The notes under the pieces: model-generated | Database searches by the model: none | What the model was told of the DNA's origin: nothing | The model's input: only the letters and a program-made list of their open reading frames with translations | Position numbers and translations under genes: made by a program | In this document: one piece after another, positions 7,305 to 35,136 of the stretch | Layout: each line of letters begins with the position of its first letter | Position numbering within the stretch: position 1 is the stretch's first letter | From: Darksidea phi | Lineage: Eukaryota > Ascomycota > Dothideomycetes > Pleosporales > Lentitheciaceae | NCBI GenBank assembly: GCA_030770425.1 | Contig: JASJFT010000301.1 | Location: forward strand, 1-45,445 | Direction: 5' to 3' | Length of the DNA stretch: 45,445 nt

Positions 7305-10300
7305 ATGGCAGCTCCAATAGGGATAACCAGACCTGCTATTGAAAGATCTGCCATGTGAGTACTCTCGAATCACACAACGATGTTCTCATCTGACATTTCG
7401 GGTCCGCTAGCAATGACCTCTGGGCTCGCGCAGTCGATCAACTTTCTTCAACGGATAAGAAAGCGATCAACTTCGACCGCCCCGATAAACTCAATATTCT
7501 GAAGGAGCTACACTATGAGGCCGAGCAAGCCAGGCAAACTGCTGTAAAGAAGCAATGGACGTTTCGTCGCAAAAATGGAGAGACCGTCATCGTGAGGGAC
7601 GTGTTCGAGAAAGTCATCCGATGGCTTGATACATTCAAGCAGGTTGGTGATGTTGCGGTTCAATACGATCCGGCACATGCTGCCCTGCCATGGGCCGCAA
7701 TTCGCTTGATTTTGCAGGTAAGGTTGCGTATGTAACGAAATCAAAATCAATTAACCTTTTCCAGATCGCGGTTAATGATTCCAATATCCGTACTGCTGTC
7801 GTCGAGGGACTTGCGCTGGTAGCGGAAATAATCTGTCGCTGTGCCGTGGTTGAGAACTTGTATCTTCCTCAACAATCTGACGCGGGTGTTGAGCTGAAAC
7901 GAGCCCTCGTGCAGCTTTACGCGAGTATTTTGATGTTTCTCTCCGAATCCACACGGTATGCAAAGAGAATTACGAATGGTTGGTTCTAGTTAGTACAGCA
8001 TCGGATGCCAATAATAAGAGTATGTAGGGAAATCCATTCTCGGTACGCTAGCTGGCACAACTCAGCTCGACGCGACTCTGGGCCAGGTTCGACTCAACGA
8101 AGAGATCGTACAACGATGCCAATCACTCGCTGATAAGGCCGGTATGTTTGACGACGAGTGGATTCCAGTGCACTAAAGGCTGTCAGATTCAGTGCGTGGG
8201 CATACTGAGCTTAAGGCCCTCCTGGAGAACATTGATGCACCAATGCAGAGAGTTGACCAGAGTTTGAGGTCACTTCAGGATGACCTTGACAGTAAGTCCC
8301 ATTCCGGTCACGATGGCTAGCGCACTCAAGCTTTACAGCTAGACGACGGATTCAAATATTACAATGGCTTTCACCGGAGCCATATCTTCAACATCACAAG
8401 CAAGCTATCAGGGACACGCTCCCTGGTACTGGGCAATGGCTGCTCTCGGATGTCCAGTTCAAGCAGTGGAAGAAGGAAAGTGCATCCACTATCCTTTGGC
8501 TCCATGGGGCTCCAGGAACGGGTAAAAGCAAGATCATGTAAGTTCTCACTTCGTCTGGATAAAATAATGACGCGTTTACTTAAGCATTCAGGTCTATCGT
8601 CATAAAAGATCTTATTCAAGGCTTCAGAGCTGGGACCAATACCCAGCCAATCTTTTTCTATTGCTCACGGAATCCAGCAGAAGCTTCACGATCTGATCCC
8701 CAAGCGATTCTCGCCAGCATAGCAAGACAGCTTTCTGCTGCAGAACTCGGAAAATCTCTACTAGACCCAGTGATCAGAGTCTTTCTGGAGGAGGAATCGA
8801 CTGGCTTCGCATCTGGCCCTACGTGGCAGCCCGATATCGAGGAAAGCTGCGAATTGATCATAGATCTTATCAAGTTCTATCCGATGACTACCATTGTCAT
8901 TGATGCCATGGATGAATGCGATTCTACAAAACGAACCGATTTCCTCAAAACCCTGCAAACAATTCTCCAAAAGTCAACTTCACTCGTCAAGATCTTCATC
9001 TCCAGTCGGGATGATCTGGATATCAAATTGATGCTTGAAGATTACCCGAACGTGGTACTTGATCATTGGAAGAATCGGAATGATATTGATCAATTCGTGG
9101 AAAAGGAGACTGATCAGCTTATCCGGGATGGAAAGCTTTTTCGTCATAGTGACTCCAAAGACGAAATGAGAGATGTCGTAACCAGCGAAGTCAAGAAAAA
9201 AGCAAAGGGCATGTAAGTTGCATGGATATAAATTATGAAGACAAGCAGTATTGATCCCCAACAGGTTTCGGTGGGCCAGCTTACAACTCCAATACCTTTG
9301 CACGTTTAGCGTTGACGCCGACATCAAAGCTAGCCTAGGGCGTCTCCCTCCAGGACTGCATGCTTCATATCGACAAAATCTGACAGCAGCGACAGAGAGA
9401 CCAGGAGAGCATCATGCATTGATTCGTAAGAACATCTTCAGCTGGCTTCTGTGCGCGCAGTCCTATCTCAGTACTGAGCGACTACTGTCCGCCGCATCCA
9501 TAGGCATAGAGAAAGGTTGCAGGGTCCAGTACTGCACCGTTGGTCTTATTCTAGACATATGCAATAACTTCGTGGTCCTCGATACAGTCCAGAACACCTT
9601 CCGATTCGCCCACCTGTCAGTTCGAGAGTTTCTCGAAAACGAACCAGAGTTTTCTTACCCATCGAGCAATGCTCTCATCGCTGAGGTCAGTCTTTGGATC
9701 ATGCTTTGTGGAAGCAAGAGCCCTTCCACAGAGGAAGTTATGGCGCATGTGAATTGGAATTCACAGGCCGCACTCGGCCATGCCGAAGAAATCGCCGAAT
9801 ATTGCTTCCGTTTTTGGATCGGACATTACAAATCAGCCAGAAAGGAGGACTTTTCGAGCGCATACAAGATTGCCTTATTGTTCTTTCTATTTGGAAAGAG
9901 CGAAACCATCTTCCATTCAAAGGAGTGGATGAGCCCCGTTGACGAAATCCTGTCGCAGGTGTATCTCAACCAACTCATGGGGGATATCTCCAATGTGGAT
10001 CGGAAAGGATCACCGCCGCCGGAACTAGCCATATGGGAGAAAAACGCCAGACTACTTAGGGATCGGCTCAGAGCCGAACGTGTGCCAGGGGTGAAAATTC
10101 GGCCCATAAAAAAGCGTCGAAAATGGCAGCGCTTTGATGATGCAACAATTCTTGCTCCTCCGACCGGCAAGGCAGGGGTCTTCCTTTGCTCAGCAAATGA
10201 CCTCATCGAACCACTTCGAGCCGTCGACGCAAAAGACTTCGTGGATTACGGTTGGACCAACGCGCAAGGTCTGAACATACTCCAGGTCGCCGCAAAGAAC

Positions 10301-11083
10301 GGCTGCTGCACCGTGTTGAATTACTTTATGCACCAGACCCTCGCTACAATTGACTTCAATGAGGATGTCTTGGTCGCACAGGCGCAGAGTGAGAGCGGCG
10401 CTGAGATTCTCAGACTATTCCTTGATCGACGTAGCGGGCCAATGGCGATTACCGAGAAGGTGATCATCGAGGCTTCTCGAAACAAGCGCTGCGGGATCGC
10501 GATTCTGGAACTACTTTTGAGTACGGGACAACAGCTTCCTGTCACTGACAGTGTCTTTCTGGCAGTCGTACAGAGTCATGGAGATAGAAGCACCATACTT
10601 GAGATTCTCCTCCGCCGCCAACGGCCAGCATTTCAAGTGACCAGGGAGGTAGTCACGGCTGCACTGAAATACACCTACACGCACGAGGTCATGAAGGCAA
10701 TGGTGCTCAATGGTATACTGAAAGACTATGGTGCCGATCCGGCTACTCTATTGCTCGCCTCCGATCCAATCGGGAACGCCAGGAAGACATATTTAACCCA
10801 GCACCGGGGTGTTGTTGGAGCGGGGCAGTATGGCGTCTCAAGCCTTCCACGGTTGCCACTCGAGCCATGGGCACAAGAAACATCCGGCCCGCCGCTTCAA
10901 GTAGTCACAGCTCGTGAAATTTTGAGCAAGAATCTTATCAGGGTGAGGTACAACGGGTCTAGTCGTTGGGTCTATCTGAATGTCAAGGATATTGGGGAAG
11001 ATGAAATGCAAAGAATCTTGGCGTTAGATGTATGGGAATATCCAAGGAAAGAGAAAAAGCCCGCGGTTCAGGCTAAGCCTTGA
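7305..11083 (+). CDS. NACHT STAND protein (NLR) with degenerate ankyrin-like C-terminal repeats
   Basis: Eight exons: 7305..7354, 7411..7717, 7765..7978, 8028..8141, 8187..8291, 8339..8537, 8592..9212, 9265..11083; 1142 aa. All introns are 45-56 bp. The junction 7978/8028 is the least certain (donor GTTGGT). Residues about 18-200 form the helical N-terminal region common in fungal NACHT proteins ([17 protein letters not shown], then [17 protein letters not shown]7708/NACHT_N-like). The NACHT core has Walker A GAPGTGKS (320-327), Walker [11 protein letters not shown] (around 430-439) and sensor ISSRDD. After it come [13 protein letters not shown] and the winged-helix motif [12 protein letters not shown]. 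The C-terminus has about four 31-32-residue units starting (I/V)T-x-x-V and ending I-L-x-L-L-L. By family knowledge it is a nucleotide-switched sensor of non-self that triggers cell death. The ligand is unknown. No lesions were seen. Confidence 0.85.
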
Positions 11084-15622: not shown

Positions 15623-18052
15623 ATGCCTCCTGGGAAACGCGTGAATCTGCAAAGCTCGAGAAGAGTTCTAATAGCAACTCCTACGACCTTGGAAGTTCCT
15701 CGACCTCAACGTCCAACAACACCATTCCCACCGAAATGGCTCAAGAGCCATGGCTGTTGGAGGTTCTCCTACAACACCCATCCCGAAGGCGAAAACGTCT
15801 TGTATATGGGGACGCTGCATGAGCTGCGCGGGCGGACCAACTGCGGATTCTGCCAAAAGCTTTATGGATATCTGAAAGATGAAGATGGCTTGTTCAGAGG
15901 ACACCCAGAGAACCAAGTTCTCTGCGGCGTCAGGAAGGGGATAGTCTCGGAGTATTTCTTGACAATGAGCGTAAGTCCCGATTGGCCCTCATACATTCTA
16001 ATAGCTTTCATCTATATCAGCTAAACCCAGTAGTGCCCAGGCTCTATCATCAACCTCGAGCACCCCATCTTGAAACCTGTTGGGAATTTTCCAAATGGGG
16101 CTAAGCGACTTGACCCTGAATGGATTTGCATAAATGATGTGGAAGACTGGATTCGTGTCTGCGACGAAAGCCATGGTTGCCGCGCGCATCCCGACAATAC
16201 AAGGCCAAAAGACTCCCCCATACTCACGTTAATCGACGTCTCAGCGGATTGTTTGGTTGTAACAATGCCACGAACACCATACCTCGCTCTCAGTTACGTT
16301 TGGGGAGGAAAAGAAACCTACCAGTTGGCTCAGGATGACTTCCCTAAACTGCAAGAGGTAGGGTCGCTTCGAGAAATTCGGGACAAAATTCCGCAGACGA
16401 TTAAGGACGCTATGGTACTCACTGCACGTCTCGGATACCGTTACATCTGGGTGGACACTCTGTGTATTGTCCAAGATGACTACGAAAACAAACTCAAGCA
16501 CATCCAGCAAATGTCGTCCATATATTCGAATGCCTCTATTACAATTGTCGCCGCTGATGGCGAACATGCTGAACACGGACTGAGAGGCGTACCGGGCTGC
16601 CTGCCTCGTTTTGATCCTCCCCAGGATCTTTTCGAATTCTCTCCATCATATCAGGTTATCATCGCTACAATGTCATTAAGTTGCCAACCCAAGAAGGAGT
16701 ACTTCACAAGAGGATGGACATATCAGGAATATCTTCTTTCCGCTCGGTTGCTTGTCTTCGTAGACAACAGGGTTGTATGGCTATGTCAAGAGCACGAATG
16801 GCAAGAAGGGTTCCATGAGGCTCGGAATTGCCATAGTGCCCATACCGCTTTCCTGACTGAAAGGGTCATGAGGAAGGAGTTGACATATCCAGATCTGTGG
16901 ACCTTCAAGGAATACGTGGAGCAGTACAACACGAGGAACTTGAGCTATGATTATGATGCATTGGCCGCTTTCTCGGGTGTTCTCAGTCGGGCGAGCTCAG
17001 CGTTTGTGGGTGGATTTTTACAAGCTCTTCCCGAGTTCTACTTCGACATCGCGATCCTATGGCAACCAGCCGATCCGCTTCGTCGCAGGGTAGCTGATCA
17101 AGAACGGTACTCGGCCCCAAGCTGGTCGTGGGTGGGCTGGAAGGGCACACTAGATCTTGACTTATGGGAATATGGAATATGCAACCCAGCCACTGCAGGC
17201 AGGTCGTACGAGATAGAAGTTTCCCCCTTGGTAACCTGGTCAAAAATGACAAAGCCTCACGGAGCTCGTTTGCCAATCGACAATTCCTACCATGAATACT
17301 ACCAACTAAGAGTGCCAGAACGCCGAACCGGAACTGTCGGGAATCAGCATCAGCACGAACCGGACTTCCTCAGTCGGATCACAAGCAGAAATTCACATGT
17401 AAAGTTATACTTGAAAGGTTGGAGCCTTTCGACTTGGAACATTGTCCAAGGATCCACATCATGGCCATGCTACCGACACTCAGCTGTCTCCACACCATGT
17501 TCGTATCCAATCTCAATCCAGAGGTCCGTAACCTCACTGCAAAGCCAAGATTACCTGTACCTGCACTGTAAAACGGCTCGGTCATACTTCCGTATTGGTG
17601 GGCCTCTCGACCGGCGAAAAGAAAACGTACCAATCTCCTGTATGTCCATCACCTTGGTGGATAAGTCAGGAGAAATAGCTGGAGTTATTCGTCTGAACGG
17701 GAAGCAGATACTCTCCGAAGAGAGTGTACTGTGCGAACTCGTAGCCATTTCGAAAGGCCAGGCTAATCTCGGGTTCATTGGGCCAGAGTATACCCTAGAT
17801 GAAGGAAGTGACTTGAACTGTTTACGCCGCCTTACAGACATTCGCGGTGGATCTGATGACTTCCTTTATAATAATTTAGAGGAGAAAACCGAGGAGCAAT
17901 ATCTGAGAAATTATGTAGGATATTATGAGTTCTTCAACGTGCTATTGGTAGGATGGAAGGGTGGCGTAGCGTATCGGAAGGCCTTGGGAAGAGTGTTTAA
18001 GGAAGTCTGGGAGGCTCAGGCTCTAGAAGAGGTGGATCTGGTTTTGGGCTAA
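15623..18052 (+). CDS. HET-domain protein (heterokaryon incompatibility type) 1
   Basis: Two exons, 15623..15970 and 16034..18052, 788 aa. The 63-bp intron (GTAAGT donor, CTAAAC branch, CAGTAG acceptor) joins EYFLTMS to CPGSIINLEHPILKPVGN. An earlier acceptor at TATCAG would lead into a stop. The HET domain starts near residue 198 with PYLALSYVWGG, continues with PQTIKDAMVLTARLGYRYIW, VDTLCIVQDD and IYSNASITIVAADG, and is followed by the usual RGWTYQEYLLSARLLVF. The N-terminal exon has an NCGFC pair and basic, proline-rich start. HET proteins trigger programmed cell death on non-self recognition in ascomycetes; this one has the complete domain and no lesions. A broken TPR gene end follows within 100 bp. 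Confidence 0.9.
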
Positions 18053-20612: not shown

Positions 20613-20735
20613 TGCAATGTTTGGGGCAACGTACTCCAGGCGGCTTCATCTGGAGGCCACGAGGCGGTGGTGAAGCTGCTGCTCGACAAGGACGCCGAAA
20701 CAATAAGTAGGTGTATAAGAGGCATGACTGCGTGA
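20613..20735 (+). pseudogene. Ankyrin-repeat scrap
   Basis: One ankyrin repeat is readable: WGNVLQAASSGGHEAVVKLL followed by LDKDAETIS, then a stop at about 20733. No further repeats are found on either side. It is probably a leftover of an ankyrin-type NLR, and it abuts the small HeLo/SesA-like gene. Confidence 0.65.
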
Positions 20736-20817: not shown

Positions 20818-21724
20818 CTATAACCCCCTTTTTGCCCGTAGGATTGCTGCAATTCCTTCCCCGTCAGCATTGCCCTGGAGGATAGTGCTCGTCCCATGGG
20901 CCTTGTTGCCTTCGTATAGTCTTTCTATAGGCACATTAGCCTGCCGCTCCACAAGATCTGTGTTGAATATATCTGCGTCGTCAAACGCCTCATTACCGAT
21001 CCACGACACCTTATTCACGAGGTTCAGCGCTCGTATATCCTCATCTGTAAGAGGTACCGTGCCATTACCTTGCAGAGTTAGCGTGAATAAAGATGCTTGT
21101 GTGGATATACAGTACTGTTTCCGTTGGAGCTCCTTCCTTCGAGCTGGGCGGCGATAGAAAGCCTCTGGCCAAGGATTAGTTGCACGTTTCTATCGACCCG
21201 TTGAACAATCGCTAAAGCTGCCGTAAGCCCGTCGCGCATACTGCCGCTTAGTCCAACATGCGCCGTGAGGATTCGTGCGGTGAGGTCCGCCTTTGCCTGA
21301 CTCAAGCGAGCGAAGAGATCATCTAGGCGTTTTTCGTCGCGGTCTCCACTCGTAAATGCATGCGTATACTGCCTAGCTTTGCTGTTTCCCAGGCGTGTAG
21401 AGAGAGCATCCAGCTCGTCCTGCAGCTCTTTCCCTAGCTCTATAATCACCTGGATCTGCTCCTGGATCGCTGGCGTCCGCAGCTCTGCTTCGTCTTGAAC
21501 GAGCCTCAGCGTGCTAAGCAAGTTCTCAAGCTGGTCCTTATATCCATCAAGCCGGTTCGACGCGCCGTGTACCTTATCCCTTGCATCGCGAATCTTTTGT
21601 ACGATGGTGATCGCTTGAGCAAGCAGCTGAGAGACGGCAGCCGTGCCACCGATCACCTCCTAGTATGTTCTGTTAGGCTTCTCCTTTTGTTGCAAATGAT
21701 TCCAAAACATACCAATCCTGACAT
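20818..21724 (-). CDS. Candidate prion-type cell-death effector: HeLo/SesA-like domain plus C-terminal amyloid-like motif
   Basis: Three exons, join(20818..21068,21116..21659,21713..21724), 268 aa. The first exon is only 12 nt (ATG TCA GGA TTG). It splices through a GTATGT..ACTAG intron to GAGGTGATCGGTGG, giving MSGLEVIGGTAAVSQLLAQ, the usual start of fungal STAND-associated N-terminal helical domains (HeLo-like/SesA group). Residues about 1-180 are predicted helical (DARDKVHGASNRLDGYKDQL, then ALSTRLGNSKARQYTHAFTS). The second intron (GTACTG, CTAAC branch, GCAAG) restores NGTVPLTDEDIRALNLVNKV. Near the C-terminus (236-257; DNA 20854-20919) is LYEGNKAHGTSTILQGNADG, which matches the N-terminal motif of the divergently transcribed NACHT-WD40 protein. 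By analogy with HET-s-type pairs, it should switch to amyloid when templated by the NLR, the N-terminal domain then damaging membranes. The pairing is an inference; the motif match is seen directly. Confidence 0.8.
20854..20919 (-). other. Amyloid-like signalling motif in the small effector gene
   Basis: Encodes residues 236-257. Pattern: Y-E-G-N-K-A-H-G-T-S-T-I-L-Q-G-N-A-D-G-E. The G-x-S-x4-G-N-x2-G spacing is that of HET-s-related amyloid motifs (HRAM). Nine of twenty positions are identical to the NLR motif at 22101-22169, and two more are conservative (K/R, E/D). Confidence 0.7.
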
Positions 21725-22070
21725 TATCACTCGATCGTGTGTTCCGTATATTCACAAAGACAAATGATGGATCGTGCCGTTCTTTTCTCTGTATTCAGCT
21801 GAGGCAAGAGTACTCGGCAAAGTTGGATGCGCGCGGTTCAGCTGGGGCTTGGCAGGACCACAGCCTTGCTGAACCGCCAGATCTTCTGTCTCCCTTCAGC
21901 TTGCAGCATCAGCTATTAGATCCTTCTCGGACTGTTCACATTCGACATTTGCTTCCCAAGACCCGCACAGCAACTCCCTCCCGTTCCTCAGTCTGCCGGC
22001 TAGCTGGAGTGAACTAGTACACTTCCTCCGCTAGCGCAAAGCCATCCGAGACGGTGCGTGGACCGCACCG
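21725..22070. promoter_or_regulatory. Bidirectional promoter of the effector/NLR pair
   Basis: This 346-bp spacer lies between the divergent start codons at 21724 (minus) and 22071 (plus), so it must hold both promoters. No other gene fits. No clear TATA box was identified. Shared control would keep the two partners co-expressed, as in known NLR/effector pairs. Confidence 0.6.
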
Positions 22071-24834
22071 ATGCAGCCCACCACTCCCCGCACCGTCACG
22101 TACGCCAGCAACCGAGCGGACGGCGAGTCGACCAACATCTACGGAAACGTCTATGGCGACGTGCACTTTCCCGGCAAGCCCAGCAAGGCTGGCGAGTTAA
22201 CCCCTCAGCAGTGCCTCCATGACCTGCGGGTGACGGACCCGCGCGAAGACCGGGCGAGGATCGAGCAGGACAAGGACAGGCTGGTTAGGGACTGTTATGC
22301 ATGGATATTAGAAGATCTCAGCTTCCAGCAATGGCAGACACAGAGCGACTCGCGGCTGCTGTGGATCAAGGGCGACCCAGGCAAAGGCAAGACGATGATG
22401 ACGATGGGTGTGATTGCGGAGCTGGGTCAAAGAGACGGAGCCGGAATTAAGCCAAGATGGATGTCGAGGATGCTAGCGAAACTGAAGCTCAGCTCCAAGC
22501 CCTGCCTGGTAGCCTACTTCTTCTGCCAGAGCACGCGGCCAGAGCTTAACAATGCCGTCTGCGTCCTGCGCGGTCTGATCTATCTGCTTGTAGAGCAAAA
22601 GCCAGAGTTGATGCGATACGTGCAGAAGCGGTACGAGACGGCAGGCAGGCAGCTTTTCGAAGGTGCTAATGCCATCTATGCGCTGCGGGAGATGCTGTCG
22701 GAGATGCTAAACGACGACGCCCTACCGATGACGTACCTTCTCGTTGACGCGCTCGACGAATGCACCTCTGGCTTGTCGGATCTGCTGCACATCATCACCG
22801 ACGCCAGCCTTGCACGACGGGCGACGGTCAAGTGGCTGGTGACGAGCCGCAACCTGCCACACATCGAGCGGCATCTACAGCCGGACTCGCGCGGTATCAA
22901 GGTCAGCCTCGAGGTCAGCGCCAGGCATGTGTCGAAAGCAGTGGCGGCGTTTGTCAACTTCAAGGTGCGGCGCCTGGCAGCTGTGCAGAGGTACGACGGC
23001 GAGACGCAGGCAGAGGTGCAGCGGCAGCTTGGCGACAAGGCCGAGGGCACGTTTCTGTGGGTGTCGCTGGTGTGTAGAGAGCTGGAGGGTGTAGAGCATT
23101 ACCGCGTGCGAGAGGTGCTACAGGAACTACCGCCTGGGCTGGACCCGCTGTACGAGCGCATGATGGGACACATTTTAGCCCAAAAACGCATACAAACAAC
23201 CACTTTTTGCAAAGACATCCTCCGGTCAGTCACGCTCGCGTACCGTCCGCTGCAAGTGGAGGAAGTAGCTACTACTACCGGCCTTCCCCTAAACCAGTTC
23301 GGCAGTGTCCAAGGCGTCCTCGACCTCATCAGTCGCTGCGGCTCGTTCCTGACAGTCCGAGACGGCACGGTATTCTTTGTTCACCTCTCAGCTAAAGACT
23401 ACTTTACGTCAGGCAATGGTAAGCAGATATTCGATGGCGCAGTGGCAGACGAGCAAGGACGGATGGCCCATCGGCTGCTAGATGCAATGGACAGTACGCT
23501 GCAAAGAGACATTTGCGGTCTGCAGAAGCCAGGAGCGCGAATACGGGAGGCTACAAATAAGATTAAGAACAGTAGTCTCCCGCGACTCGCATATGCGTGC
23601 GAGTACTGGATTCAGCACCTGCAGGCAAGGGCTAGAGACAGCGGTGAGATACTGGTAGACGGCGGCAAAGTCCACAGGTTTCTTCAAAAACATCTCCTCC
23701 ACTGGCTAGAAGCTGTAGGTCTGCTGCAGAGGATGCCGGAAGCTATATTAGCGTTGCAGGCGCTGCAGGATATGCTTAAGGTAAGCTGTAGGCGGACATG
23801 AAGGTAGCTATATTGCTAATACTGGTAAGGGGCCTAAAAGCATAACAGTGTCCGAGGCAGTTCACGATGCGCTGCGGTTTGCGATGTGGAGCGTAGCTGG
23901 GGTCCAAGAAGCGCCGTTGCAGGTGTACTACGGTGCGCTTGTGTTTGCACCAGAGCAAAGCATTGTGCGGAGGCAGTACTTTCGAGACATACTAGGACGG
24001 GTGCAGGTGAAATGTGGACTTGATAAAGACTGGGGACGTCTACTGCAGACGCTCGAGGGCCATACGGACGATGTCACCAGCGTAGTCTTCTCGCCGACGG
24101 GAGATCGACTGGCATCGGCTTCAAGGGATAAGACGGTACGGGTGTGGGATGCGAAAATAGGGCAGCTACTGTATACCCTTACGGATTATACAGGTGATAT
24201 CAACAGCGTAGTCTTCTCGCCGACGGGAGATCGACTTGCATCGGCATTGGCGGATGAGACGGTGTGGGTATGGGATATGAAGACAGGGCGGCTACTATAT
24301 ACCCTCAAGGGCCATACGGGCTTTGTCACCAGCGTGGTCTTCTCGCCGACGGGAGATCGACTAGCATCGGCATCGGCGGATGAGACGGTGCGGGTATGGG
24401 ATACGAAGACAGGGCAGCTACTACATACCCTCAAGGGCCATACGGGCTTTGTCACCAGCGTGGTCTTCTCGCCGACGGGAGATCGACTAGCATCGACTTC
24501 GTGGGATGAAACGGTGCGGGTGTGGGATGCCAAGAAAGGGCGGCCATTGCACACCCTCCAGGGCTGTAGGGATATCAGCCTGATTTCTTTTTCATCGGAT
24601 GGATTTTGTCTTAAAACAAACAGAGGGACTATCTCGTTATCATCGTCTCTATCTATAACTTCTCTATTATCCTTCCAGCAGCATATTCTTGTAAAGCACG
24701 GCTGGCTAACAGTAGACTCAGAGGATACACTTTGGCTTCCTATTGAATTTAGACCTGGTCCTATTTCTGTCCTAGATCAGCAAGTTGCTATAGGTTATTT
24801 GTCTGGTCGTATTCTATTAGTAGAGTTTTACTAA
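22071..24834 (+). CDS. NACHT-WD40 STAND protein (NWD type) with N-terminal amyloid-like motif
   Basis: Two exons, 22071..23780 and 23830..24834, 904 aa. The 49-bp intron (GTAAGC donor, GCTAATAC branch, GGTAAG acceptor) keeps phase 0. There is no large N-terminal effector domain. Instead the first 35 residues carry NRADGESTNIYGNVYGDVHF, which matches the C-terminus of the divergent small gene. NACHT follows: LLWIKGDPGKGKTMM (Walker A 101-108), TYLLVDALDEC (Walker B, about 222-231), VTSRN, LGDKAEGTFLWVSLVCREL and VFFVHLSAKDYF. Then four near-identical 42-residue WD40 repeats (VFSPTGDRLASAS, VRVWDAK), a degenerate fifth, and a closing DTLWLPIEFRPG/GYLSGRILLVEFY block. By family knowledge the WD40 propeller senses non-self, NACHT oligomerises, and the N-terminal motif templates the effector. 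The gene appears intact. Confidence 0.88.
22101..22169 (+). other. Amyloid-like signalling motif at the NLR N-terminus
   Basis: Encodes residues 11-33 of the NACHT-WD40 protein: Y-A-S-N-R-A-D-G-E-S-T-N-I-Y-G-N-V-Y-G-D, then VHF. It aligns without gaps with the C-terminal motif of the divergent gene and fits the HRAM spacing G-x-S-x4-G-N-x2-G. Confidence 0.7.
24040..24543 (+). repeat. Four tandem 126-bp WD40 units, near-identical
   Basis: Units begin at 24040, 24166, 24292 and 24418. The blocks GTCTTCTCGCCGACGGGAGA and TCGACT(G/T/A)GCATCG are shared by all units. Differences concentrate at a few codons: the residues after GHT/YT (DDVT, GDIN, GFVT, GFVT), the position before DET/DKT (SR, LA, SA, SW) and the D/M/T/A of WDxK. 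This is the high-internal-conservation pattern known for fungal NLR repeat domains. Confidence 0.85.
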
Positions 24835-32823: not shown

Positions 32824-33243
32824 AATTGGGGTGCTAGAATCTTAAGTTTGCCTAGCGTTTGGCCACGTCAACCATGCGCCACTATTTATGGAGTGGGCTG
32901 TGCAAAACTTCAGAAAACTCTATATTTCAAAGAATCCGGCATTTTTCCTTTGGAGATATTTAGTATGTTCTACGTTTTTGCTCTGCTAAACTTTTACCCT
33001 AAATATATAACCGACCGCCAGGCAATCTATTTCCGTGGTCACTTTGAGGGATTTGTCACCCTCAACTGCGTTTCTAGAAAAAAGAAAAACAAAAAATGGT
33101 AGGCAACAGCATATTCGAGAATGTATAGGCTACCTTCGCTTTGTCTCAACTATGTATTCTGATGAGGTTACCCCATTCACACCAAGCTTTTTCTTCAAGC
33201 ACTGACAGGTGCAATCAAGGTTCAACCGGTAAATGGATCTCAG

Positions 33244-35136
33244 ATGTCCGACGCGGAACAAGGTCACAAATATCAGCCACTGGATCTTTCAACGGACGAG
33301 ATCCGGTTACTTACACTTCATCCTGAAAGAAACGGTGACGAAATCAGTTGCACATTGAGTCATCACAACCTTACGGACAACACAGAGTATGAGGCGCTCT
33401 CATACACATGGGGAGATAATGCGAACCGACGCACTATTATCTTGGATGGCATTCCTTTCCAAGTCACAGCGAACCTTGAAACCGCCCTGCGCCATCTTCG
33501 GTACCCGCCACCGTTGAGTTTACAGCCACATATAGAGAGTAGGCTACATACCGATGATCAACGCAAAGACAGAGTACTATGGATTGATGCACTCTGCATC
33601 AATCAAAGTGACAATGCAGAGACTAGTCAGCAAGTAGCAATTATGGCTGAAATCTATTCGCATGCTAGCCGGGTGCTGGTATGGCTGGGCGAAGAAACAG
33701 AAGAAGTGAGGGACGCATTTGCGACAATGAAAAGAGCGCTATCTTACTTTCCACCCGCAAGCGAGGACTCACAAGTGGAAGGAAATCCGGACCAGCGGCT
33801 TGTGCATACCCTAACGACTTCCCACAGTGAACTTGACAGACTGTATTCGTTTAATTGGATTCCGCTCGGGAAGCTGCTTTCTCGGGCCTGGTTCCAACGC
33901 AAATGGGTCATCCAGGAGGTAGCTCACGCACGCGAAGCGTTGCTTGTATGCGGACATCAGACCCTCCCGTGGGACTCCATCGTCGATTTCACTCGCCGCT
34001 TGTATTCCTTCGGCATGAACCACGTGGTTTCTATAAAACTTGGAGAAGTCAACGACGAGGCGCCAATAGCATATCGGCACGTTATCGTAATGACGGCTTT
34101 CCGGGGCATTCAGGAACCAGAAGGTTCTCCTACCTTTACCCTGCTCGATCTAGTGTGTTTGACCCGACAATTCAAGTGTACCGATCCGAGAGATCACATA
34201 TTCGCAATACAGAGTCTCTCCTGGGGACAGGAAAGTCGGGAGCATAGCTTCCCTATTGATTACAGTCAAAGTGTGGAAGAGACGTACCGTAGGTTTGCAG
34301 CCTGGAGCATTGTTGGGAAGAGCGGTCTACGGTTATTGTCGGTGCCCACCAATCCCTATCAGCAGTCAGAATTGAGTTTGCCGTCGTGGGTACCAGACTT
34401 AACTCGGCTTGATCAAGCAACCCCTTTAGGCTCGCATGCGGTCTCTCCATACAATGCAACCGCGGATACATCCCCGATCGTGCGGCTCTCTCACAATAAT
34501 AGTATTCTACATATAAGTGGAAAGGCTATCGATCGAGTACATACTCTAGGGAGCACGCTCGAAGACACAAAGCTGCCTCTCGGAACCACCTTGCCAAAGA
34601 GCGCAGATCCGAACGTAGTTGCCCAAATCCGCCGACAACAGCTGTGGTTCCTCGAATGCCAAAATATCGCTCTGGGTGACGATGTGACCATGTCTCCTCA
34701 AAGGTTCGAAGAATTCTGGCGGACAATGTTATACGATGTGAAAGGTTTACAAAACATGCACGAGCGCGCAACGGCAGAGTATGCTAGCTACTTTCTACAG
34801 TATTCCGAGGTCCTGCATGCTGAACCTAGAGAGAGGAACTCGAATTGGCACAAGGACCGTTTTCAGGGCGCCATCGCGGTCCAGCGATCGCTGCTTGCCC
34901 ATTCCGGTCATCGCTGTTTCTGTGCTACGAGCGGCGGGCGTCTCGGCCAAGTTCCCCGCGGCGCAGCCGTCGGAGACTTGATATGCGTTTTCTATGGCGG
35001 TAGTGTCCCCTATGTTATACGCCCTGGCGACGATGGATTCTTCACGTTCGTCGGGGAATGCTACGTCCACGGACTCATGGACGGAGAAGCAATGGAGGTG
35101 GAAGGAATTCGGGAGCAGGAGTTTGTTTTGCGTTAG
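33244..35136 (+). CDS. HET-domain protein (heterokaryon incompatibility type) 2
   Basis: Single exon, 630 aa, ATG 33244 (MSDAEQGHKYQPLDLSTDEI). The classical HET layout is complete: IRLLTLHPERNGDEI, YEALSYTWGD (from residue 49), ALRHLRYP, LWIDALCINQSDN (from residue 112), QQVAIMAEIYSHASRVLVWL, and then SRAWFQRKWVIQEVAHA. After the domain come FKCTDPRDHIFAIQSLSWG, YSQSVEETYRRFAAW, LSLPSWVPDL and the C-terminal RCFCATSGGRLGQVPRGAAV/GDLICVFYGGSVPYVIRP, the usual end of this 600-700 aa class. By family knowledge it controls incompatibility-type cell death. No lesions were seen and codon use looks normal, so it has escaped the RIP affecting its neighbours. It has no detectable partner gene beside it. 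Confidence 0.93.
   Translation: MSDAEQGHKYQPLDLSTDEIRLLTLHPERNGDEISCTLSHHNLTDNTEYEALSYTWGDNANRRTIILDGIPFQVTANLETALRHLRYPPPLSLQPHIESRLHTDDQRKDRVLWIDALCINQSDNAETSQQVAIMAEIYSHASRVLVWLGEETEEVRDAFATMKRALSYFPPASEDSQVEGNPDQRLVHTLTTSHSELDRLYSFNWIPLGKLLSRAWFQRKWVIQEVAHAREALLVCGHQTLPWDSIVDFTRRLYSFGMNHVVSIKLGEVNDEAPIAYRHVIVMTAFRGIQEPEGSPTFTLLDLVCLTRQFKCTDPRDHIFAIQSLSWGQESREHSFPIDYSQSVEETYRRFAAWSIVGKSGLRLLSVPTNPYQQSELSLPSWVPDLTRLDQATPLGSHAVSPYNATADTSPIVRLSHNNSILHISGKAIDRVHTLGSTLEDTKLPLGTTLPKSADPNVVAQIRRQQLWFLECQNIALGDDVTMSPQRFEEFWRTMLYDVKGLQNMHERATAEYASYFLQYSEVLHAEPRERNSNWHKDRFQGAIAVQRSLLAHSGHRCFCATSGGRLGQVPRGAAVGDLICVFYGGSVPYVIRPGDDGFFTFVGECYVHGLMDGEAMEVEGIREQEFVLR

Follow-up and report, generated by a model that had tools for sequence, protein, structure and literature searches.

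A head-to-head NACHT-WD40 receptor and small effector of Darksidea phi look like a divergent amyloid-signalling module

In the window analyzed here, a 45,445-nt stretch of DNA from the fungus Darksidea phi (contig JASJFT010000301.1), an NLR gene and a small effector gene lie head to head, and the question is whether the two products act together through a sequence motif that they have in common. The locus had been read from its sequence as a recognition and execution module with a shared amyloid-like motif, and this proved to be the best reading, with most of the evidence in agreement, including motif sharing, another such pair in this genome, charge pairing and the predicted fold. We regard it as very probable that the two genes form an amyloid-signalling module of NWD2/HET-S type whose motif has diverged. 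It appears to be a variant of an already known type of fungal immune switch.

Features of the locus are listed in Table 1. The head-to-head arrangement and the distance between the two start codons were confirmed, and both reading frames were open once the introns were removed, as originally proposed. An alternative NLR intron (23781-23856) also kept the frame and yielded a product of 895 aa, while the spliced effector product was matched along its length by full-length relatives (14 aligned, with 49-79% identity). The two genes adjoin, the N-terminal motif of the NLR takes the place of an effector domain, and the matching motif is found at the effector C terminus, as in known NLR/effector pairs.

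Table 1. Features of the effector/NLR pair, with positions in the window
Feature	Position	Strand	Details
Effector gene	20818..21724	-	ATG 21724, stop 20818, 268 aa spliced
Effector exons	21724-21713, 21659-21116, 21068-20818	-	
Effector introns	21712-21660 (53 nt), 21115-21069 (47 nt)	-	both short
R2, second pseudo-repeat of effector tail	20866..20928	-	residues 233-253; Y-x-G-N-[KE]-A-H-G-x-S-T-x-x-Q-G; motif of the original prediction
R1, first pseudo-repeat of effector tail	20953..21015	-	residues 204-224; W-x-x-N-[EK]-A-F-x-x-A-x-hydrophobic-F
Region common to both genes, between start codons	21725..22070	.	346 bp
NLR gene	22071..24834	+	ATG 22071, stop 24834, 900 aa; short N-terminus, NACHT (NPHP3_N), WD40
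R0, single motif at NLR N-terminus	22089..22151	+	
NACHT-type nucleotide-binding domain	22296..22850	+	NPHP3_N PF24883 E 4.1e-32; NACHT PF05729 E 7.8e-8
NLR single intron	23788-23848	+	
WD40 repeats	24040..24564	+	126-bp unit, 4.2 copies, 84% matches

Together with the NACHT domain, a WD40 profile match (E 2.6e-52) identified the receptor as a NACHT-WD40 NLR. The effector had been described as HeLo/SesA-like. Its residues 11-124 matched the SesA profile (PF17107) weakly, with 16.7 bits (E 0.0083) against a cut-off of 26.3 bits, and the protein was not one of the 19 SesA matches in the genome; neither the HeLo nor the HeLo-like profile was listed for it at E 1. At the level of sequence, support for that description is weak. 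The small effector is probably a cell-death executioner.

We then compared the motif peptides of the effector (Y-E-G-N-K-A-H-G-T-S-T-I-L-Q-G-N-A-D-G-E) and the NLR (Y-A-S-N-R-A-D-G-E-S-T-N-I-Y-G-N-V-Y-G-D), and a recount by eye gave the same 9 identities in 20 ungapped positions as reported before. When NLR residues 1-50 were scored against the effector, the top ungapped BLOSUM62 score was 49 and located at the motif. When both sequences were shuffled 2000 times, this value was never attained (mean 22.7, sd 3.6), and hhalign matched the motif profiles of the two proteins (13 effector rows and 18 of 35 NLR rows) with a probability of 83.6 and a P of 8.2e-6. From the shuffle test and the profile-profile match, the similarity exceeds chance. 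The motif spans few residues, and the highest-scoring shuffled pair, at 48, came close to the observed score, as would suit a chance or compositional match of G/N-rich sequence; however, the motif recurred in many relatives (34 NLRs and 69 effector tails), a second pair exists in the genome, and charges co-vary between repeats, and a chance match is refuted, with next to no probability left to it.

The effector tail also contained an additional, cryptic repeat, R1, which lies 29 residues upstream of R2 and had escaped the original prediction. The layout is therefore 2+1, with two repeats of about 21 aa separated by an 8-residue loop in the effector and a single R0 in the NLR, in line with the HRAM layout of two such repeats, a loop of 6-18 aa and one NLR repeat. 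In NLR relatives, R0 reads T-Y-x-G-N-R-A-D-G-D-S-T-N-I-Y-G-N-V-Y-G-D, and it was more similar to R2 than to R1. For the effector tails, 69 of 73 rows were kept, the remaining ones (P0161, P0162, P0164 and P0165) lacking R2; A4 took in 95 of 131 effector proteins or parts, A5 55 of 60, and A3 18 of 35 NLR N-termini. As in HRAMs, the two repeats were complementary in charge when placed in register, at positions 2, 9, 13 and 20, with strong co-variation at position 9 only. At this position R1 and R2 carried opposite charges in 57 of the 69 rows and like charges in 1, it was the strongest among 2211 column pairs, and E/K reversals had occurred repeatedly.

Evidence on linkage and co-variation between receptor and effector came from relatives. 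With equal-sized contigs as a proxy for linkage, 9 of 32 NLR contigs had an effector counterpart and 23 did not. In 10 pairs, R0-R2 similarity was greater than after re-pairing (p 0.022; Mantel r 0.71, p 0.0008, with shared ancestry left in), while R0-R1 similarity in the same pairs was not (p 0.16). The window provided one of these pairs, Macroventuria and Decorospora contributed same-species pairs on unequal-sized contigs, and one of the two NLRs of the contig 53077 pair was entered. The co-variation of the NLR and effector motifs, on which the proposal was to be checked, is present but modest, and the strong co-variation sits between R1 and R2 instead. An NLR motif next to an effector without a match would have counted against the proposal; neither of the genome's two whole-motif NLRs was in this situation, and the Paraphoma effector model, paired by proxy with an R0-bearing NLR on an equal-sized contig, lacked R2. 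Gene models from Lindgomyces, Plenodomus and Alternaria also appear to be without R2. Taken at the level of sequence, the data show motif sharing, the 2+1 layout, in-register charge pairing of R1 and R2, and conservation and linkage of the pair.

Elsewhere in the genome, three HeLo or HeLo-like effectors ended in related double repeats, and the gene of one of them faced another NLR gene of the R0 family in head-to-head orientation, a pair that had not been noted earlier. The tails on C29 and C58 carried H at position 3. Inspection by eye of the frames of 100 aa or longer, over 9.5 kb surrounding the C452 effector and over the initial 6.5 kb of C58 (contig end), revealed none of NACHT type; both neighbourhoods were profile-scanned in part, and the C452 effector entered the R0-profile scan as its second exon frame only (139 aa). 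Judged by their sequences, other HeLo-type effectors thus do carry a related motif.

AlphaFold modelled the effector tail as two identical β-arches, and the first AF2 model had rungs of 21 residues and an 8-residue loop. Compared with 350,542 PDB chains, the predicted β-arch structure had as its top two matches, with weak scores, the prion amyloids of HELLF and HET-s. Sequence searches of solved structures returned nothing at E 10 for the tail profile and weak matches to unrelated enzymes alone (E about 1) for the C29 and C58 tails, and in the viral structure library no match fell below E 0.86. On the prediction, the tail may adopt a two-rung HET-s/HELLF-like fold. Modelled as a monomer the tail was fairly confident (pLDDT blocks up to 89-91), and charge pairing within one chain would suit a soluble fold as well, so that R1 and R2 might instead form a small globular β-fold to which R0 docks as an extra strand or rung, in a one-to-one complex free of prion templating. 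We consider such soluble docking improbable, as the best structural matches were amyloid rungs and the 2+1 repeats, with their C- and N-terminal placement, are those of amyloid modules.

Because the matching repeats are predicted to form a stack resembling that of the HET-s prion, the receptor probably turns on the executioner by passing on a protein shape. For this amyloid-signalling module we infer a chain that leads from the sensing of a ligand through amyloid formation and templating to cell death. The WD40 part would bind a non-self cue and the NACHT domain would oligomerize the receptor, upon which the clustered single R0 motifs would assemble as stacked β-arches. These would template the natively open effector tail, R1 and R2 adding one rung each, and conversion of the tail would free the N-terminal helical domain, which would probably attack the membrane and kill the cell.

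The spacing G-x-S-x4-G-N-x2-G had been called HET-s related, and this held in part. With the arch glycine (19) as anchor, which fits better and is backed by the 21-residue AF2 rungs, G-x6-G-N corresponds to G12, G19 and N20 of HET-s numbering, while other HRAM features were absent. An earlier alignment, in which the motif N was set at position 3 of HET-s, was dropped; with it the motif seemed to fall short of HRAM length by five residues.

It is possible, if rather doubtful, that the motif is an ordinary member of a published HRAM subfamily such as HRAM3 or HRAM4, and not new. The predicted rung and loop lengths suit this, as do G12, G19 and N20 in R2 and R0; in the portions of the HRAM literature compared, Q18 (40 of 69 R2) is described for HRAM4 and H3, seen in the C29 and C58 tails, marks HRAM3, which is listed there for several fungi. 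These fungi belong to the Pleosporales. However, G19, expected in every HRAM repeat, was found in 68 of 69 R2 and 35 of 35 R0 but in 5 of 69 R1. The hydrophobic and basic HRAM core (5, 8, 10, 16, 18, with R/K at 15) was not seen overall: position 5 was W/Y/F, in keeping with it, but position 8, hydrophobic by the HRAM rule, was N in 66 R1 and 60 R2 of 69; position 10 was mostly A; position 16 was hydrophobic in R1 and most R2 and N in 33 of 35 R0; position 18 was mostly N/Q, with Y in R0; and at position 15, D/N prevailed in R1 and T in both R2 and R0. Position 3 was V in R1 and R in R2. The Pfam HET-s (PF11558), sigma (PF17106) and PP (PF17046) profiles gave no listed match to the tail at E 10, under HMMER filters that drop most matches above 0.1, whereas the genome's own HET-S tail matched the HET-s profile with E 3.2e-24; nor did the R0 profile recognize this HET-S (18 of 400 shuffles were as good). 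Some of the sequence features defining published HRAMs are thus missing.

Tentatively, and with considerable reserve, the motif may represent an undescribed amyloid-signalling family, a HET-s-like β-solenoid in which N residues form a ladder at position 8 of the core and the arch glycine is missing from the first rung, common to SesA/MLKL-like, HeLo-like and HeLo executioners of one genome, with at least two related receptors and with E/K reversals as specificity switches. If so, reversals between rungs would keep parallel death circuits from cross-seeding. The locus adds a well-conserved, possibly unclassified, predicted amyloid signalling motif and suggests that a fungus may use one motif family with several executioner domains, a point relevant to insulation versus cross-talk of parallel death circuits. 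Relatives with the inter-rung pair reversed (E/K to K/E) offer natural variants for testing charge pairs as prion seeding barriers.

NWD2/HET-S of Podospora anserina (HRAM1) likewise has adjoining divergent genes, a NACHT-WD40 receptor with one N-terminal motif, a small effector ending in two repeats of some 21 residues each, an R0 nearer to R2 than to R1, and inter-repeat charge complementarity that includes position 13. In contrast to HET-S, the window effector has no recognizable HeLo domain and no PF11558 match, and its motif lacks N3 and R/K15, has N at core position 8 and is without G19 in R1. FNT1/HELLF of the same fungus (HRAM5) shared 14% identity in the structural alignment and differs in its HeLo-like effector domain.

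In the text portions of PMC4518210, PMC9815663, PMC5485727, PMC12261475, PMC3321046, PMC7889193 and PMC7885112 that were compared, the window motif is not described. As far as those portions go, sesA/sesB/het-eN (sigma) of Nectria haematococca similarly combines a SesA-type effector beside an NLR with a common C-/N-terminal motif (PMC3321046), although by inspection the window tail lacks the sigma submotifs GxGxQF and GGTQN. The same portions describe a recent motif-sharing pair of Fusarium oxysporum, GDQN, with a probable NLR and a SesA-associated protein (PMC12261475), whose published NxxxGxQYxxxGxGDQNxVSxxxxQxN the window motif did not match by inspection. For the PP motif, FxGx(x)NxGLQLxGxNxGxL, the tail likewise had no profile match listed at E 10. 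The sigma matches of the genome were on C423, where SesA domains mark another, sigma-type locus, and PP matches were on C54 and C223 and, below the cut-off, on C8.

The head-to-head arrangement and intact frames of the original prediction are borne out: in this 51.35-Mb genome (477 contigs; fungal, judging from relatives), whose contig C226 is the window, the effector and the divergent NLR gene both give complete products once spliced. The NLR intron can be placed at 23788-23848 or 23781-23856, either of which keeps the frame; the flanking protein sequence, -VHDALRFAMW- or near, was present in four of the eight relatives looked at and does not discriminate between the two introns; the remaining four gave no match to it.

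Coordinates of the gene pair, the HET-domain frames and two further effectors of the same genome
Feature	Location	Position	Strand	Details
HET-domain frame	window	16034-18049	plus	PF06985, E 2.4e-31
Effector gene	window	21724-20818	minus	268 aa once spliced
NLR gene	window	22071-24834	plus	900-aa NACHT-WD40 protein once spliced
HET-domain frame	window	33166-35133	plus	PF06985, E 1.4e-31
Effector, terminal double repeat	L066 (contig C452)	4267-5362		HeLo-like, PF17111, 71.2 bits
Effector, terminal double repeat	L067 (contig C58)	680-1690		HeLo, PF14479, E 1.1e-54

The nine identities claimed between the NLR N-terminal motif (R0) and the effector tail repeat R2 held up (9/20 ungapped, above shuffles). 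With the NLR start compared against the whole effector, the R0/R2 stretch was the best local ungapped match, and its score of 49 was reached by 0 of 2000 double shuffles; profile-to-profile comparison of the effector and NLR motifs of relatives gave a probability of 83.6 (P 8.2e-6). The shared R0/R2 motif is real. R0 was present in 34 other proteins, and Y5, N8, A10, and G19 are invariant in all 35 sequences, the window included.

A second pseudo-repeat, R1 (W-x-x-N-[EK]-A-F-x-x-A), lies upstream of R2 in effector tails at a spacing of 29 residues, with two residues more in sequence P0149. When the effector-tail profile was compared with itself, offset 29 scored highest (9.1; next, -3.7; mean, -15.4; sd, 7.5). 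With two pseudo-repeats in the effector and a single one in the NLR, the layout is that of Podospora HET-S/NWD2, where, as described in PMC4518210 and PMC3321046, R0 is also more like R2 than R1. Likewise, R0 was closer to R2 (4-10/16 identical) than to R1 (2-8/16) in most of 10 pairs. At the sequence level, motif sharing and the 2+1 layout are established.

Charges were compared in 69 effector tails with both repeats. At position 9, right after the conserved N, R1 and R2 were of opposite charge in 57 tails and of like charge in one (45 E/K, 2 E/R, 10 K/E, and 1 K/K, with 11 neutral on at least one side), and this pair had the top corrected mutual information (0.460; next, 0.268; sd, 0.061) among the 2211 pairs of columns separated by four or more. 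The K/E state occupies, as judged by eye, five separate places in a tree built without both position-9 columns, whose support is limited by its ~70 residues, and Pagel-type tests of correlated change gave LR values of 21.3 (p 2.7e-4) and 21.1 (p 3.1e-4). Positions 2, 13, and 20 were also complementary (opposite/alike, 59/2, 40/0, and 25/2), with strong co-variation at position 9 only (r -0.83 versus -0.43, -0.10, and -0.08, respectively). For HET-s, PMC4518210 lists three positions at which salt bridges link the repeats, and position 13 is one of them. Net charge pairing was best at offset 29 of 35 offsets (184; next, 136), and the effector repeats on contig C29 show the same complementarity (N-K-V-L-G-E versus N-E-V-S-G-K). 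Signals for R1-R2 stacking can be read from the residues themselves.

We consider it quite probable that the pair is an amyloid-templating cell-death module of the NWD2/HET-S type, and its mechanism is most likely that of NWD2/HET-S. Ligand-driven NLR oligomers would nucleate the R0 fold, which would template R1-R2 of the effector and free a membrane-active helical domain; sensing, templating, and cell death are attributed to the pair by analogy, and the fold is predicted. HRAM systems would work alike, and the pair is predicted to have the HRAM fold; however, published HRAMs are defined by sequence features of which the motif lacks several, and it is for this reason not filed as a member. It may be a sixth HRAM subfamily or form a family of its own. 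Systems of this kind are already known, and the version in the window looks new.

Scanned exon by exon, this genome gave at least 12 scored matches to the N-terminus of the NLR family; of these 12, only those of the window and C29 span the whole motif. The C29 NLR (start L031:3409) is head to head with a HeLo-like effector (PF17111, E 2.4e-30), with 286 bp between start codons; the effector tail has two repeats with the N-to-G spacing of the window effector, and the N-to-G interval of the C29 R0 is one residue shorter. A SesA-domain frame adjoining this pair (L031 1427-1960, plus strand, 58 bits) may be a third gene of the locus or a relic. A double repeat of this type also terminates the C452 and C58 effectors. 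Reading of their flanking sequence revealed no NLR, and the two are possibly orphans under a distant receptor. The best 22-mer for an R0-only NLR profile was a C-terminal tail repeat in 4/4 effectors (0/400 shuffles as good in each), and this profile did not recognize the genome's canonical HET-S protein (18/400 shuffles as good). The latter (PF11558) lies separately on C120; also separate are a sigma locus on C423 and PP-type matches on C54 and C223 and, below the cut-off, on C8. Close to the canonical HET-S frame, another NLR (L032 ~7592-7780, C120) starts with a different amyloid-looking stretch, NVHGNDNSKIHVGNNTYYQ, in which the window motif is not seen.

Relatives of the effector number 71, alongside 60 separate tail exons that come in part from the same contigs. 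Ten of the 71 carry a species name, namely nine Pleosporales (including Alternaria) and the lichen fungus Peltula. Of these 10 gene models, six have both repeats, two have no R2, and two have neither repeat, through either annotation error or loss; because R2 is absent from four, our confidence in the templating module is slightly reduced. Linkage outside the source genome was inferred from same-sized contigs: NLR contigs equaled the contig of an effector part at 9 of 32 distinct sizes, the species named being Didymella keratinophila and Paraphoma chrysanthemicola. The expectation that the neighbor of a motif-bearing NLR has a matching motif agrees with the C29 pair, which has the repeats, and not with the annotated Paraphoma effector, which lacks R2.

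HET heterokaryon-incompatibility frames flank the window pair, one per side, and the window therefore looks like a non-self-recognition cluster.

Farther upstream, the plus-strand frames 8584-9213 and 9239-11080 are perhaps another NLR, possibly broken; the second contains a winged-helix stretch (GPIID_WHD, below the cut-off) and a DUF7104 match. Just beyond the effector stop codon, a lone stretch that is ankyrin-like by eye, GGHEAVVKLLLDKDAE (20640-20710, plus strand), may be what is left of an ankyrin-type NLR. Beside the NLR, the AT-rich segment 25501-27000 carries a strong signature of RIP, with a TpA/ApT of 1.76 and a composite index of 1.18, and alone among the 30 bins of the window passes the usual cut-offs for both indices.
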